In this document: in pieces, positions 1,660-59,918 of the stretch | Position numbering within the stretch: the stretch's first letter is position 1 | How the letters are laid out: each line of letters begins with the position of its first letter | Source: Salvelinus alpinus | Lineage: Eukaryota > Chordata > Actinopteri > Salmoniformes > Salmonidae | Direction: 5' to 3' | DNA length: 64,000 nt | Assembly: GCF_045679555.1 (NCBI RefSeq) | Contig: NC_092098.1 | Coordinates: 22,040,038-22,104,037 of the forward strand | Position numbers and translations under genes: made by a program | The notes under the pieces: model-generated | The model's input: the letters and a program-made list of their open reading frames with translations, nothing else | Database searches by the model: none | What the model was told of the DNA's origin: nothing

Positions 1660-3540
1660 TCTTCAGGGGGTTAGCCATCAGTGACACAGTTGACAAGTCA
1701 CTGACGGAGTTGACAACAGATACTCAAAACAGACATATTTTTACCTCTAAAAATAAAAGTTCAATACAACCAATTGTAAAATATGGAAAATTATTCATTT
1801 ATAAATCCCCAATAAAAACAACTACTTTATCAGATCTTTCAGTACTCTGATGGAGTTGACGGTAGACAAAAGTCTGTTGGAGTTGATGTTTTGTGGAGGT
1901 GACAAAAAATTCATTTTTCTTCTTCATTCAAGTGGTACACACAGTAGCAATTTTGGATTTCGTCAGTTGCTTTATGACTCTAAAACTTAGTTAAATGTAC
2001 ACTGAACAAAAATATAAACGCAACATGCAACAATTTCAAAGATTTTCCTGAGTTACAGTTCATATCAGGAAATCAGTCAATTGAATAATTCAATAGGCCC
2101 TAATCTATGTATTTCACATGACTGGGAATACAGATATGTATCTGTTGATCACAGATACCTTAACAAAAGGTATGGGCATGGATCAGAAAACCAGTCAGTA
2201 TCTGCTGTGACCATCATTTGCCATCGTGCAGCACGACACCTCTCCTTTGTATAGAGTTGATCAGGCTCTTGATTGTAGCCTGTGGAATGTTGTCCCACCC
2301 CTCTTCAATGGCTGTGTGAAGTTGCTGGATATTGGTGGGAACTGGATCATGCTGTCATACAGTACATATCGATCCAGAGCATTCCCAAACATGCTCAATG
2401 GGTGACATGTCTGGTGAGTATGAGAATTGTGTACAGATCCTTGTGACATGGGGCCATGCATTATCATGCTGAAACATGTGGTGATGGCAGTGGATGAATG
2501 GCATGACAATTGGCCTCAGGAACTCATCACGGTATCTGTGAGCATTCAAATTGCCATTGATAAAATCCAATTGTGCTTGTTGTCTGTAGCTTATGCCTGC
2601 CCATACCGTAACCCCACCGTCACCATAGGGCACAACGTTGACATCAGCCAACCGCTCGCCCACACGACGCCATCTATCTGCCCAGTACAGTTGAAACCGG
2701 AGTTCATCAAAGAAGAGCACACATCTCCAGCGTGCCATTGGCCATGAAAGGTGAGCATTTGCCCACTGAAGTCGCTTACAACACCAAACTGCAGTCAGGT
2801 CAAGACCCTGGTAAGGACAACGAGCACACAGATTAGCTTCCCTGAGATGGTTTCGGGCAGTTTGTGCAGAAATTCTTTGGTTGTGCAAACCCACAGTTTC
2901 ATCAGCTGTCTGGGTGGCTGGTCTCAGACAATCACAGGTGAAGAATCTGGATGGGGAGGTCCTGGGCTGGCGTGGTTACAGGTGGTCTGCGGTTGTGAGA
3001 CCAGTTGGACACACTGGCAAATTCTCTAAAACGACATTGCTTATGGTAGAGAAATTAACATTAAATTCTCTGGCATCAGCTCTGGTGGACATTCTTGCAG
3101 TCAGTATGCCAATTGTACGCTCCCTAAAAACTTGAGACATCTGTGGCATTGTGTTGTGCACACAGGTACACCTTGTCCCCAGCACAAGGTGTACCTGGGT
3201 AGTGATCATGCTGTTTAATCAGCTTCTTGATATGCCAAACCTGTCAGGTGGATGGATTATTTTGGCAAAGGAGAAATGCTCACTAACAGGGATGTAAACA
3301 AATTTGTGCACAAAATTAGAGAGAAATAAGCTTTTAGTGCGTATGGAAAATTTCTGGGATCTTTTATTTCAGCTCATGAAACTTGGGACCAACACTTTTC
3401 TACATGTAATGAGGACATGCATAAGGGGTCCTTATAGTATAGCTTACCCTGCTCATTCCAAGTCAATCTGACAGAGTTGACCAAATCTCTGGACACATCT
3501 TTTAGGAATCACAGTTTTGAGAGAAATATTCTTTAAATTC
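1660..3540. repeat. Unclassified repeat with gagttgac motifs, split by a Tc1
   Basis: The words gagttgac, cagttgac or gagttgat occur several times at about 1686-1885 and again at about 3476, on either side of the Tc1-like element at 1998-3408. This suggests one older sequence interrupted by the Tc1. I see no reading frame of note and cannot assign a family. Confidence 0.3.
1998..3408 (-). mobile_element. Tc1-like transposon (ACTGAACAAAAATATAAACG family), broken
   Basis: The left inverted repeat begins tacactgaacaaaaatataa at 1998. The right end keeps only the inner repeat (catgaaacttgggaccaaca) and has lost about 30 outer bases. Between them, on the minus strand, are pieces of transposase: an N-terminal part at 2976-3209 (MPQMSQVFRERTIGIL) and a catalytic part at 2355-2894 with FFDE, QHDNAWPH and SPDMSPIEHVW, in different frames. 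The D, D and E blocks are recognisable but the reading frame is not continuous. The element at 36810-38294 belongs to the same family. Confidence 0.88.
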
Positions 3541-4236: not shown

Positions 4237-34658
<30,422 letters not shown>

Positions 34659-50226: not shown

Positions 50227-51631
<1,405 letters not shown>

Positions 51632-54229: not shown

Positions 54230-54670
54230 TAGCCCAAACATAGACTATATAATTGATCAATAAATCTGAACCAATCATAGATATAAATGTTTCACAAGTT
54301 TGGACAGCACAGTACAGTAAAGCACGGCAGAGTACAGTACATTACAGTACAGTAAAGACAAGTAGAGTATAGTACAGTAGAGTACAATACAGTACAGCAC
54401 ACTACAGTACAATCAAGTAAAGAAAAGTAAAATATAGTGTACTGTATTGTACCCTACTTTACTCTAATGTACTCTACTGTACTAAATTAAACTGTAATGT
54501 ACTGTACTCTACTTTACTGAATAAAACTGTCCTGTACCGTACCATACTGTACTTTACTGTACTCTTCCGTGTTCTACTGTGCTCTACTGTACTAAAGTGT
54601 GCTGTACTGTAATGGGATGTTCAATCTTGTGAAACATAGCCTAGACGTCTGTGATTCATTCAGATTTGGA
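54230..54670. repeat. Large imperfect palindrome (fold-back element)
   Basis: The left arm (aaatctgaaccaatcata, aaatgtttcacaagtttgga, then many acagtac/gtaaag words) is inversely repeated in the right arm (tgtactgt/ctttac words, then caatcttgtgaaacatagcc and attcagatttgg). Arms of about 200 bp meet near 54435. No coding capacity. Confidence 0.75.
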
Positions 54671-54754
54671 TCTGGTCCACACCTGCCAAATTTGTACTTG
54701 TTTTGGAGCGGAGTTTATTAAAATAATACCCAGCATGCGTTGCAAGTGTTTGTT

Positions 54755-54812
54755 TTTACATTTACATTTTGGTCATTCAGCAAACGCTCTTATCCAGAGT
54801 GAATTACAGTCT
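54755..54812. repeat. Teleost-wide dispersed repeat fragment
   Basis: tttacatttacattttggtc and cgctcttatccagagtga form a short sequence recognised as highly repeated across teleosts. Its class is not settled from this fragment. Confidence 0.6.
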
Positions 54813-55833
54813 GTACATTCAACTACGATAGATAAACAACAATGTACTGTATCACAGTCTTAGCAAGAAACAATACATCTGTAACCGTTACTCAGAATGT
54901 TATTGTAGTTGAAGTGGTCTGTTGGTTTATTCTGTGTAATGGACTACTTTGAATGTTATTGCTATCAGTTTAAAAGCTTTTGAAAAAGCTAACAGATGTG
55001 ACAGATGACAACAATACTAAATATTATGTTGCAATCGTCAGTTAGCTCCTCTTTCTTATTAAGAGGCATGAAAAATTATTATTGGGATATAATGCTTACT
55101 TCATTGAGAATGTATAGCAGTTTAAATACGGAAAGGTATAAAAAAAATACCAATTTTATACCTAAATACCTACGTCCGTATAAGACATATTTTCGACATC
55201 AGTACAAGACATATTTTCGACATCAGGAAAAGACGTCTTCTAACATTTCATTCAGTACCTGAAATGTGTGTGATGTCAACGTCTGGAAAATACATATTTT
55301 CAACATATAGGCTTATAAAAAAATAAACTGTCAATTGAAAAACAAATGTAAAGTTTATTATATCAGTTTTGATACAGCATTAATTACAAAAGACTCAACT
55401 GTTATAACATTTAGCTAATCAAGTGGTACAAATGTATTAAACTATCTTCCCATAATTTGCACAAGTAACATTTTTTCGTATTATTTTATGAAGACAGCAC
55501 CCACCACTATATGCATTCATGTAGTAGATTTAACAAAACTCAATCACATCAATTCCAGCAGGGAATATTTTCCATGTCCAGCGATAGCATTGAAGCTCAT
55601 TGAAAGCATTAATTTCTTGATCACGCAGAAATAACTGATCAGTTTTCCACAAGAGGGCATGAAATGAATGACATCTTTGAATTATCCTGCAAACGGCTTT
55701 TCCAGCACTTACATTATAATGCAGGGAAATTGGGGCACTAACACAACGCTCATGCAGTTAAGGCCCACTAGGATCTCAACAAAATCTATTTGCATCAATA
55801 AAACATTGACATTTTTTAAAAACTATCTCCTGC
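54813..55833. other. Intergenic sequence, short direct repeats only
   Basis: A direct repeat (gacatattttcgacatcag) occurs at about 55185 and 55208. No gene seen. Confidence 0.45.
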
Positions 55834-55839
55834 TTTATT
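55834..55839 (-). terminator. Polyadenylation signal AATAAA for the small secreted-peptide candidate
   Basis: A canonical AATAAA on the minus strand, about 155 bp beyond the TGA at 55993-55995. Confidence 0.45.
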
Positions 55840-55992
55840 ACAGTGAACTGCAATGAGAGCTTTTCGTCCTCTTGCTCTGTCGATGGCAGGTGCTCTGCAG
55901 GTCATCTCCATTGTATGGACAGGGTAAGGCAGGAGAGCGTCTCAGTCCTGGTGATGATTAGTGTTGAGGGACTCAACTCCGGCTCCATAGGA

Positions 55993-56883
55993 TCAGAGAG
56001 TGGTGCGCATTAGCCTCATGACTCGTTGGTACAGCTGCTGGACAACTGTCATGAGATTCCTAAAATGGTTTGTCAAAAGAACACAAAAGACATGGACAGT
56101 GAGTGGTACCAAACACAGCAAATTGTTCAAGCCAAGGTTCTGTTTAACATGCTGTAGTAAATATTGAGCAAAGATTCATTATAACTTTATTAATTATTTT
56201 ATGAATAATTACCCTAATAACCCAAATAAAAAATACAATACAAAATAGATGTTGTATTGTCACATACACCAGATCAGTGCAGTGAAATGTGTTGTTTTAC
56301 AGGGTCAGCCAAAACGGCACCCCTGGAGCAAATTGGGTGTAGTACCTTGCTCAAAGGCACATCAACCAATTTTTAAACTTAGGTATTCAACCCAGCAACC
56401 TTTCAGTTACTGGCCTAACGCTCTAACCACTAGGCTACCTGCCGCCAATATGACACTAACCGTGAGTCTTTTAAGACATGGGAAACAGTAACTCAGTAGC
56501 CACATATTCCATCTTCTTTTTACATCCCATATTGTTATACTGAATGTATTTCATTCTCTATCAAGCAAGTAAAGGTATGCCAACACATACAGAACAGAAG
56601 ACATGTCACTACCTCAGATTTTTGCGAATTACCCCCAGATAAACAGATAAGACATTAACACAATAACACACACCATCATGACTAAGACATTTCTGCCCCT
56701 CACACAAATACAAACATACAGGCAAGCACACATATACACTGAAATACACACACACATACTGACACAGACTCACCGAGCGCTGATGGAGCCACAGTTGTTG
56801 CGGTTGGGGTTCAAGCAGAAGAGCGAAGCGACACAGTAGACACAACACAACAAAATGGACAGCAGTCGTCTCTTTAAAGTCAT
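55993..56883 (-). CDS. Candidate small secreted peptide precursor, 58 aa, unknown
   Basis: Not recognised. Exon 1 coding 56774-56883 starts at an ATG with A at -3 and encodes a basic start (KRR) followed by the hydrophobic LLSILLCCVYCVASLFCL, a good signal peptide or signal anchor, then NPNRNNCGSISA. Donor gtgagt, phase 2. Exon 2 coding 55993-56059 follows acceptor accattttag and, in the matching phase, encodes RNLMTVVQQLYQRVMRLM then RTTL and TGA: an amphipathic helix. An AATAAA lies 155 bp downstream. The intron (56060-56773) carries a SINE. Hormone, host-defence peptide or single-pass micro-protein are all possible. Short length and lack of a known family keep confidence low; a chance pairing of splice-like sites cannot be excluded. 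Confidence 0.4.
56233..56447 (-). mobile_element. tRNA-derived SINE with RSg-1-like tail
   Basis: The minus strand reads ggcggcaggtagcctagtgg then ttagagcgtt (box A-like) and ggttgctgggttgaatac (box B-like), and ends with a tail containing gtatgtgacaatac, related to the RSg-1-type LINE tail at 4938 and 15898. It lies in the intron of the small-peptide candidate. Confidence 0.75.
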
Positions 56884-57215
56884 CTTCAGTACAGAGGAAA
56901 CTCAGGTCAGCTTCAGAGGTCAAGCCCAAGACAGGAGGTAGTCTATTCAAAGAATAATAACACCTTCAAGATGTTTCTGGCTAAGGCAACCCGTAGTCGA
57001 GGAGTGGGCAGTGCTAAGTGTAAATAGGGTGAGAATGACTACTGGTACAGGGGCATTGGGCACAATTACTGCTGACCAACAGAAGTTTTGAATGGCACTG
57101 AAAGGTCTAGTAGGGATGAATAACATTCCCACATTGTATGTCTGTGGGAGCCAGAGGTTATTGTGTTTTTCCCCCCTTTGTGATCAAAAGGGGATCTTTA
57201 CTCTACATGAAAAGA

Positions 57216-58640
57216 TCACTGTGTATTTGTATTTTTGTATTTATTATGGATCCCCCTTAGCTGCTGCCCCGGCAGCAGCTACTCTTCCTGCGGTCCAGCA
57301 AAATTAAGGCAGTTTATACAGTTTATACAATACATTCAAAAACATTACAATACATTCATAGATTTCACAACACACTGTGAGCCCTCAGGCCCATACTCCA
57401 CCACTACCACACATCTACAGTACTAAATCCATGTGTATGTGTGTGTATAGTGCGTATGTTATCGTATTTGTGTGTGTGTATGCATGTGTCTGTGCCTATG
57501 TTTGTGTTGCTTCACAGTCCCCGCTGTTCCATAAGGGATTTTTTAATCTGTTTTTTAAATCAAATTTTACTGCTTGCATCAGTTACTTGATGTGGAATAG
57601 AGTTCCATGTAGTCATGGCTCTATGTAGTACTGTGTGTCTCCCATAGTCTGTTCTGGACTTGGGGACTGTGAAGAGACCTCTTGTGGCATGTCTTGTGGG
57701 GTATGTATGGATGTCCCAGCTGTGTGCCAGTAGTTTAGACAGACAGCTCGGTGCATTCAACATGTCAATACCTCTCATAATTTCAAGTAGTGATGAAGTC
57801 AATCTCTCCTCCACTTTGATCCAGGACAGATTGACATGCATATTAATTAATATTAGCTCTCTTTGTACATCCAAGGGCCAGCCGTGCTGCCCTGTTCTGA
57901 GCCAAATGCAATTTTCTTTAGTCTTTTTTTGTGGCACCTGACCACACGACTGAACAGTAGTCAAGGTGCGACAAAACTAGGACCTGTAGGACCTGCCTTG
58001 TTGATAGTGTTGTTAAGAAGGCAGAGCATCACTTTATTATGGACAAACTTCTCCCCATCTTAGCTACTACTGCATCAATATGTTTTGACCAAAACAGTTT
58101 ACAATCTAGGGTTACTCCAAGCAGTTTAGTCATCTCAACTTGCTCAATTTCCACATTATTTATTACAATATTTAGTTGAGGTTTAGGGTTTACTGAATGA
58201 TTTGTCCCAAATACAATGCTTTTAGTTTTAGAAATATTTAGAGCTAACTTATTCCTTGCCACCCACTCTGCAATTAACTGCAGGTCTTTTTTAAGTGTTG
58301 CAGTCATTTCAGTTGCTGTAGTAGCTGACGTGTATAGTGTTGAGTCATCCGCATACATAGGCTTTACTCAAAGTCAGTGGCATGTCGTTAGTAAAGCAAG
58401 GAGCTAAACAGCTACCCTGGGGAATTTCTGATTCTACCTGGATTATGTTTGAGAGGCTTCCATTAAAGAACATCCTCTGTGTTCTGTTAAACAAGTAACT
58501 CTTTATCCATATTATAGCAGGGGGTGTAAAGCCATAACACATACGTTTTTCCAGCAGCAGACTATGATCGATAATGTCAAAATCTGTATTTGATGAGACC
58601 CTGGTGATATTGTTTGGACTGACCTCGTTGGGTTGTTGTT
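57216..58640 (-). mobile_element. L2/CR1-group LINE, 5'-truncated
   Basis: The minus strand shows RT: FDIIDHSLLLEKRMCYGFTP and SEIPQGSCLAPC (58345-58610), MYADDSTLYTSATTATEMTA (58029-58358), then the C-terminal part NLSWIKVEERLTSSLLEIMR to MTTWNSIPHQVTDASSK (57560-57964), then a 3' UTR ending with tggatcccccttagctgctg at about 57250. The parts are in different frames, so there are at least two breaks, and the 5' half is missing. Different family from the LINE at 15898. Confidence 0.86.
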
Positions 58641-59918
58641 GCTGAGGGTTAAAACGAGCAGCAGGGAGTTCAGAAATAGTTACAGAGAGAGAGAAGAGAG
58701 TGGAAATGCATACACTTATGAGGAAGTTGGGTAGTAATTTATGCAGGGTAGATTTATGTCTCCCAAAGCAATGCTTCCCATACGTAAAACAGAAGTAGTT
58801 GACTGATAACATACAGTATACTGTACATGTAGGGAGATTCACGTCATCCTGTCTGGCAAATATACACTTTCTCTCTCTTTCTTTCTCCCTATCGTGTATT
58901 TTGCCTCTCAGTTTGTTTAGAGCTGTATAAATAGATACATAAAACACTTAGCCATGATGAGCCACTGATGAGACACAGATACAGTGGTTAGTCACAGCAT
59001 ATTTTGTACAGCACTGTGAATGTTAAAGGTTGTGTGTCAAGATGAAGAGGCTTCTCAATTCCTTCTATACCTTCTTTTTGCTGAAACTCATCTTAGACAT
59101 TAGAGTAGCCAAGACAGCAGATAGTCTTTATTGATTATAGTACTGTAAGTGGGAGTAGATGGTTATTTTTCCTTTTGTGCCTCGATTTTGATTTTTTTAA
59201 ATTCTGTGTGTTTTCTAAAGGACCCACATATTAGTCTACAGACAACTGCCAGATGGGTCTTCCCAAAGCAAATGGGTCTTCCCAAGAGACATGCCACAGA
59301 AAACTCTTCCTCTCTTTCCTTACTTCCCTACTTATTGACATCAATGGATGGGCAAAAATAAAATCACTAATGACTTTATGGTGAAGATACAAATGGCATC
59401 AAAAGCAGATCTATCTTAGTGTAGTGTAGTGTTGATGTTTGTACTGCAGATTACTGTCATTAACCCAGATTCAGTGGTCGTGGTGAACCCTTGTGGAAAA
59501 TGGCCCAGTCATCCCGGATGTCTGCACCAGGGACTCTCTGAGGGGACTGGGATGATAACCAGATAGCAGGCTGGACAAGGGTCGGATGCAGAGGAACCAC
59601 AGCTACAGACGAGAGAGGAGGGGAGATACTTTGCCCTCTGAGGAGCAAAGGCACATCGGGAGTGGATGAGTACCCATTGAACGTTCTTCATTTTTTCCTA
59701 AAGAGCTTTTTACTTAATAGCTCAGTTTATCGTTGTGAATTTCTTTCTGTTATACAAGGAGTTTGACAGAGATTGATATTAAGTACAGTACAAAGAGGAA
59801 AAAATTGGTATTCGGATACCAATATACCACAGTAGGAGTGGATGTTGGTGGATATAATTTATTTGTTTTGTGGGGGAATCTCTCCGATATACAAGACTTA
59901 GATCTTGTAAAGGACTCA
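58641..59918. other. Intergenic sequence upstream of gpr119
   Basis: Likely holds the gpr119 promoter and 5' UTR. No clear TATA box. A 29-codon ORF at 59042 (MKRLLNSFYTFFLLKLILDI) was seen but is unsupported. Confidence 0.45.

Follow-up and report, generated by a model that had tools for sequence, protein, structure and literature searches.

A candidate two-exon gene for a 58-residue, putatively ER-targeted peptide between the presumed slc25a14 and gpr119 genes of Salvelinus alpinus

Small secreted or membrane-anchored microproteins are a known kind of object, and two-exon genes for proteins of fewer than 60 residues are those that automatic annotation most easily misses. The candidate presented here lies in a 64,000-nucleotide stretch of Salvelinus alpinus contig NC_092098.1 (hereafter, the window) and resembles several described groups of peptides in single traits. 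The myomixer-like microproteins of vertebrates share with the candidate a short length and a basic, hydrophobic N-terminal part ahead of an amphipathic helix. Myomixer has a conserved motif C-terminal to the helix and a coding part contained in one exon, whereas the candidate has two exons; its product gave no match above cut-off to any Pfam model, whether or not myomixer is among them. The calcitonin/CGRP family has in common with the candidate a possible signal peptide and two cysteines followed by an amphipathic helix, but its members have a C-x5-C loop, an amidated C-terminus, and a longer precursor, whereas the candidate has C-x7-C and neither a propeptide nor an amidation glycine. The size of the loop, the layout of the precursor, and the lack of a Pfam match above cut-off place it outside this family. 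Finally, the piscidin-type antimicrobial peptides of fish combine a signal-like leader with a cationic amphipathic helix, as does the candidate, which differs from them in having no acidic prodomain and no Pfam match above cut-off.

The candidate gene is on the minus strand, between two known genes, and consists of two exons (Table 1). Its spliced frame reads MTLKRRLLSILLCCVYCVASLFCLNPNRNNCGSISARNLMTVVQQLYQRVMRLMRTTL, then a stop, and the 58 residues of the product include eight lysines or arginines and no aspartate or glutamate. The two-exon anatomy is confirmed: every sequence element described in the initial annotation was located on the minus strand, and the gtgagt donor and the acceptor, both in phase 2, join the two exons exactly in phase. 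The ATG at 56883 has the favourable context that had been claimed for it, with A at -3, and the exon-1 frame is closed at its 5' end by an in-frame TGA 21 nt upstream. From 56059, exon 2 runs for 21 full codons to a TGA ending at 55993, and the AATAAA, placed 155 bp past the stop in the initial annotation, starts 154 nt beyond its last base. The splice site had been placed correctly, but the junction cited as 56773/56060 names the end bases of the intron, and the exon bases that are joined are 56774 and 56059. Without splicing, the exon-1 frame meets a stop just past the donor, after 37 residues. We favour the reading that the candidate is a real, short, two-exon protein-coding gene whose product is targeted to the ER and, judging from the DNA itself, give it a probability of about 0.58.

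Table 1. Coordinates of the candidate gene and of its parts in the window.
Feature	Position	Strand	Basis
Exon 1, coding part (from the ATG through a basic n-region, hydrophobic leader and Cys-containing segment to the gtgagt donor)	56774..56883	-	Reading frame; ranks among 281 ATG frames
Intron, 714 nt, phase 2, GT-AG (gtgagt...ttttag)	56060..56773	-	Splice motifs
Presumed tRNA-like SINE within the intron	56220..56446 (approximate limits, by eye)	-	Box A, loosened box B; SINE identity presumed
Exon 2, coding part and stop (cationic amphipathic helix)	55993..56059	-	Frame, helical moment, codon score
3' UTR, with AATAAA (55839-55834) at its end	55834..55992	-	Sequence
Putative 5' UTR or promoter region, with in-frame TGA 21 nt 5' of the ATG	56884..57200	-	Sequence

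The composition of the candidate is coding-like in the predicted frame, modestly so in exon 1. Its GC3 of 0.69 compares with 0.72 for nine known exon segments of the window, and the surrounding region (55000-57600) has a GC content of 0.39. A codon score trained on the 745 codons of these nine segments gives the candidate 0.18 per codon overall; the training exons, when scored on themselves, reach 0.27-0.71. In each exon the predicted frame outscores the five others, with a barely positive 0.07 bits per codon in exon 1 and 0.36 bits per codon in exon 2. Among the stop-free stretches of the window of equal length, scores as good or better are found in 8.6% of 21828 for exon 1 and in 1.9% of 42159 for exon 2. 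About 950 of the 1880 high-scoring control stretches of exon-1 length, and about 500 of the 780 of exon-2 length, fall in the bins 22500-23499, and a GC-rich repeated array at 22338-23502 accounts for at least half of the high-scoring control stretches. Several frames of this array are open on either strand, with 316 aa on the plus strand and 353 aa on the minus strand, and a Pfam search with the 353-aa frame was without match.

The N-terminus encoded by exon 1 is leader-like, in agreement with the basic-hydrophobic leader initially proposed. Its sequence and its hydrophobicity rank suggest a basic n-region and a hydrophobic h-region, as in a signal peptide, and a possible VAS cleavage site was recognised by eye. 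The segment MTLKRR and the 18 hydrophobic residues following it would suit a signal peptide or a signal anchor. When compared with the 281 ATG frames of the window, exon 1 ranks third for hydrophobicity, 18th for codon score, and 25th for donor score, and it is the sole frame of the 281 to reach this hydrophobicity together with this donor score, or together with this codon score. The GC content of exon 1 is unremarkable, since 17% of windows equal it or its contrast.

The splice sites are of unequal strength. The donor scores 5.1 bits, a value reached by 51 of the 7916 GT dinucleotides on both strands. The acceptor is weak (0.6 bits, ending in TAG, with an interrupted pyrimidine tract): within 2 kb, 11 other acceptors reach a score of 0 or more and eight of them are stronger, and the tails that these rivals would give are shorter than the predicted one, except for one that is longer by a residue. 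The best acceptors near the nine known exon segments, whose limits are provisional, score 7.6, 6.9, 5.5, 5.2, 5.2, 4.5, 2.7, 2.7, and -0.1. The frame of exon 2 is open for 39 codons 5' of the acceptor, so that no stop marks the border between intron and exon. Yet, within this one continuous open frame, the codon score passes from -0.70 per codon upstream of the acceptor to +0.36 downstream of it, and GC3 from 0.39 to 0.67. This switch in codon composition at the predicted acceptor is the best evidence for the border of exon 2. The weak acceptor would also fit a gene in decay, and several upstream acceptors (at 57175, 57141, 57106, and 57097) score 2.3-3.4, so that the first exon given here need not be the first. 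The two segments might then belong, as coding exons, to another or a longer gene, with an upstream exon on the far side of the LINE (about 57.2-58.9 kb) or another 3' end, or else be the remnants of a decayed gene. We hold this to be very improbable: the in-frame stop preceding the ATG closes the frame on one side, the stop codon and the AATAAA close the 3' end on the other, and the acceptor immediately preceding the ATG has a score of 0.0.

The intron had been said to hold a SINE. A tRNA-like box A (TAGCCTAGTGG) is indeed present at 56437; the strict pattern of box B is without match in the intron, and the loosened pattern matches at 56392. The identity of the element as a SINE is presumed, and the window has no second copy of it.

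The second exon is set apart by its amphipathicity rather than by its length. The window contains 1072 acceptors outside known exons and 478 of them are followed by a phase-2 frame of at least 18 codons, for which reason we discarded the length of the exon-2 frame as evidence. Of these 478 acceptor-led frames, exon 2 has the highest helical moment and the third-best codon score, and the two frames with higher codon scores have low moments (0.25 and 0.15). A moment as high as its 0.69 occurs in 38 of 20000 permutations of its residues and in 20 of the 45710 stop-free 21-mers of the window, including the candidate's own. The short amphipathic helix that had been noticed is thus well beyond chance. 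The lack of acidic residues was rejected as evidence, because 2.2% of the stop-free 58-mers of the window have no D or E and at least eight K or R.

Exon 2 and the 3' UTR together (55839-56059) form a block of 52% GC that extends from near the acceptor to near the AATAAA. Its contrast to the flanks is reached by 0.4% of the windows of the same length, its GC alone by 8.8%. Such a GC-rich, exon-like block with a poly(A) signal would suit any transcript, including a transcribed, perhaps spliced, lncRNA with exons at this place, whose 58-residue frame would be incidental or weakly translated. The weak acceptor, the modest codon scores, and the failure to find a homologue of the product point the same way, but a non-coding exon would not be expected to have an extreme amphipathic helix, or a codon bias that keeps its phase across the two exons and switches at the acceptor, and we consider the lncRNA unlikely. 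Rfam gave no family at gathering score, and the fold of exon 2 and the 3' UTR is ordinary (z -1.19); the latter led us to reject a structured RNA, and both results are also compatible with a lncRNA.

A chance alignment of ATG, donor, acceptor, stop, and AATAAA, with no gene at all, has to be weighed in the same manner. Acceptors as good as the predicted one or better are common (595 on the plus strand and 517 on the minus strand), frames of 18 codons or more follow many of them, as seen above, and the criteria of our anatomy scan were chosen post hoc, with the candidate already seen, so that much of the selection was made after the fact. Controls with shuffled and with real sequence speak against chance. 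With a donor score of at least 5, an acceptor score of at least 0.5, and a leader hydrophobicity of at least 2.0, two starts were found in the real window against a mean of 0.2 in 40 shuffles; these two were the candidate, with four choices of acceptor, and 55853, with a codon score of -0.43. Over three relaxed settings, this one included, the real window had 2, 2, and, at the loosest, 6 starts against shuffle means of 0.2, 0.275, and 0.45, and no shuffle model had the codon score of the candidate in the 40 shuffles made at each setting. The other models found in the real window had codon scores from -0.17 to -0.43. A stricter scan, the thresholds of which were the candidate's own values, gave one model in the window and none in 30 shuffles. 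Because the locus was picked for its leader and its helix, the tests on these two features are partly circular, a reservation that does not apply to the codon score, to its switch at the acceptor, or to the GC block. We regard a mere coincidence of signals as rather improbable.

If the two-exon coding gene is real, its working may be pictured as follows. Exon 1 would provide an ER-targeting leader (MTLKRR followed by LLSILLCCVYCVAS) and a short Cys-containing linker, and exon 2 a cationic amphipathic helix (NLMTVVQQLYQRVMRLMR) with no acidic residue. The leader would insert at the ER, after which two outcomes can be envisaged: 1) a cut after VAS, at residue 20, would release the 38-residue peptide LFCLNPNRNNCGSISARNLMTVVQQLYQRVMRLMRTTL, in which cysteines eight apart (C23 and C31) might form a disulphide loop preceding the helix; or 2) the leader would be kept as a signal anchor, with the helix on the lumenal side. 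The hydrophobic residues of the helix (L39, V43, L46, V50, and L53) follow a 4-3-4-3 spacing, and the helix would bind the membrane, self-associate, or bind a partner or receptor. The frame, the splice-site sequences, the composition, and the amphipathicity are read directly from the DNA; from them we infer the transcription, splicing, ER targeting, and cleavage of the candidate, and the function of its loop and helix. If expressed and conserved, the candidate would extend a fish gene neighbourhood by an ER-targeted microprotein, which may be a secreted peptide. If not, the locus illustrates to what extent one can be misled by composition and splice motifs on their own.

Searches for relatives agree with the initial remark that no family with this sequence was known to the annotator, inasmuch as Pfam, NCBIfam, and PDB gave no family match. 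In Pfam, nothing reached the cut-off, the one weak hit being Trimer_CC (12.2 bits at E 0.15; cut-off 27), and there was no match to a transposon model. The photosystem II PsbQ model of NCBIfam was rejected (14.5 bits at E 0.024; cut-off 106.9), and the PDB sequence search returned no hit at E<=10. Short patterns were matched in IMG/VR and in GTDB genomes (36 and 190 stretches, respectively) and included no relative; neither is a collection of fish sequences, which makes this weak evidence of absence. More generally, the collections in which no homologue was found hold little or no fish sequence. Three pieces of the peptide, used as text queries, had no match in the literature searched. At the level of DNA, the whole window gave no match in Rfam at gathering score or in a tRNA search, a permissive Rfam search of 54600-57300 returned one LINE 3' element at 54767-54820 alone, and the region 55600-57240 has no second copy in the window, save for four pieces of at most 34 bp.

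Pfam was used to identify the neighbours of the candidate: a minus-strand exon near 40 kb has a mitochondrial-carrier domain, two plus-strand frames within 59.7-61.4 kb match a rhodopsin-type receptor, and an RRM lies at 63.7 kb. We take the corresponding genes to be slc25a14, gpr119, and rbmx2, respectively, and the minus-strand exons between 4 and 34 kb to be those of pof1b, one putative exon of which was submitted to Pfam and had no match. The candidate is thus placed between slc25a14, on the same strand, and gpr119, on the opposite strand, as had been proposed. The further claim, that the human map has no such gene in this interval, carries little weight. The relative orientation of slc25a14 and gpr119 in human presumably differs from that of the window. 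In addition, according to PMC3064598, the synteny between human and rodents around ucp5 (slc25a14) is not kept in zebrafish and pufferfishes. For both reasons, the human map says little on the interval. The legend to Figure 5 of the same paper names GPR119, POF1B, RBMX2, RAB33A, KIAA1191, and ZFP280C around the UCP5 (slc25a14) orthologues, and it refers besides to an un-annotated pufferfish protein known by its Ensembl transcript id alone (PMC3064598). The genes named in the window as slc25a14, gpr119, rbmx2, and pof1b therefore appear together in this legend. An unrecognised family of fish secreted peptides could be imagined in the slc25a14-gpr119 interval, absent from the human map, with a cleaved, acid-free peptide of 38 residues, a nine-residue disulphide loop, and a cationic helix of strong amphipathicity, acting as a peptide hormone or as a membrane-active defence peptide; we see this more specific proposal as rather unlikely.

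The candidate is flanked by apparent remnants of mobile elements. Between it and gpr119, LINE reverse-transcriptase-like frames occupy 57240-58950 on the minus strand, with an A-rich tail near 57225 recognised by eye, and a match to RVT_1 at 58029-58367 (22.7 bits, under the cut-off of 29.6) marks a minus-strand fragment of a retroelement. Downstream of the candidate, the element at 54767-54820 on the minus strand matches the UnaL2 LINE 3' element of Rfam (41.9 bits, E 4.7e-06, under the gathering score of 55) and is probably a truncated LINE end. Farther away, a long tandem array at 12549-15418 has its plus strand open in several stretches. Frames that we take to be transposase-like, of Tc1/mariner type and many of them broken, are found at 60-1060, 2355-3218, 5533-6321, 8250-8618, and 9944-11050, and again at 17210-18142, 24249-25319, 26223-27058, and 50558-51031, which would make DNA transposons abundant in the neighbourhood of these genes.
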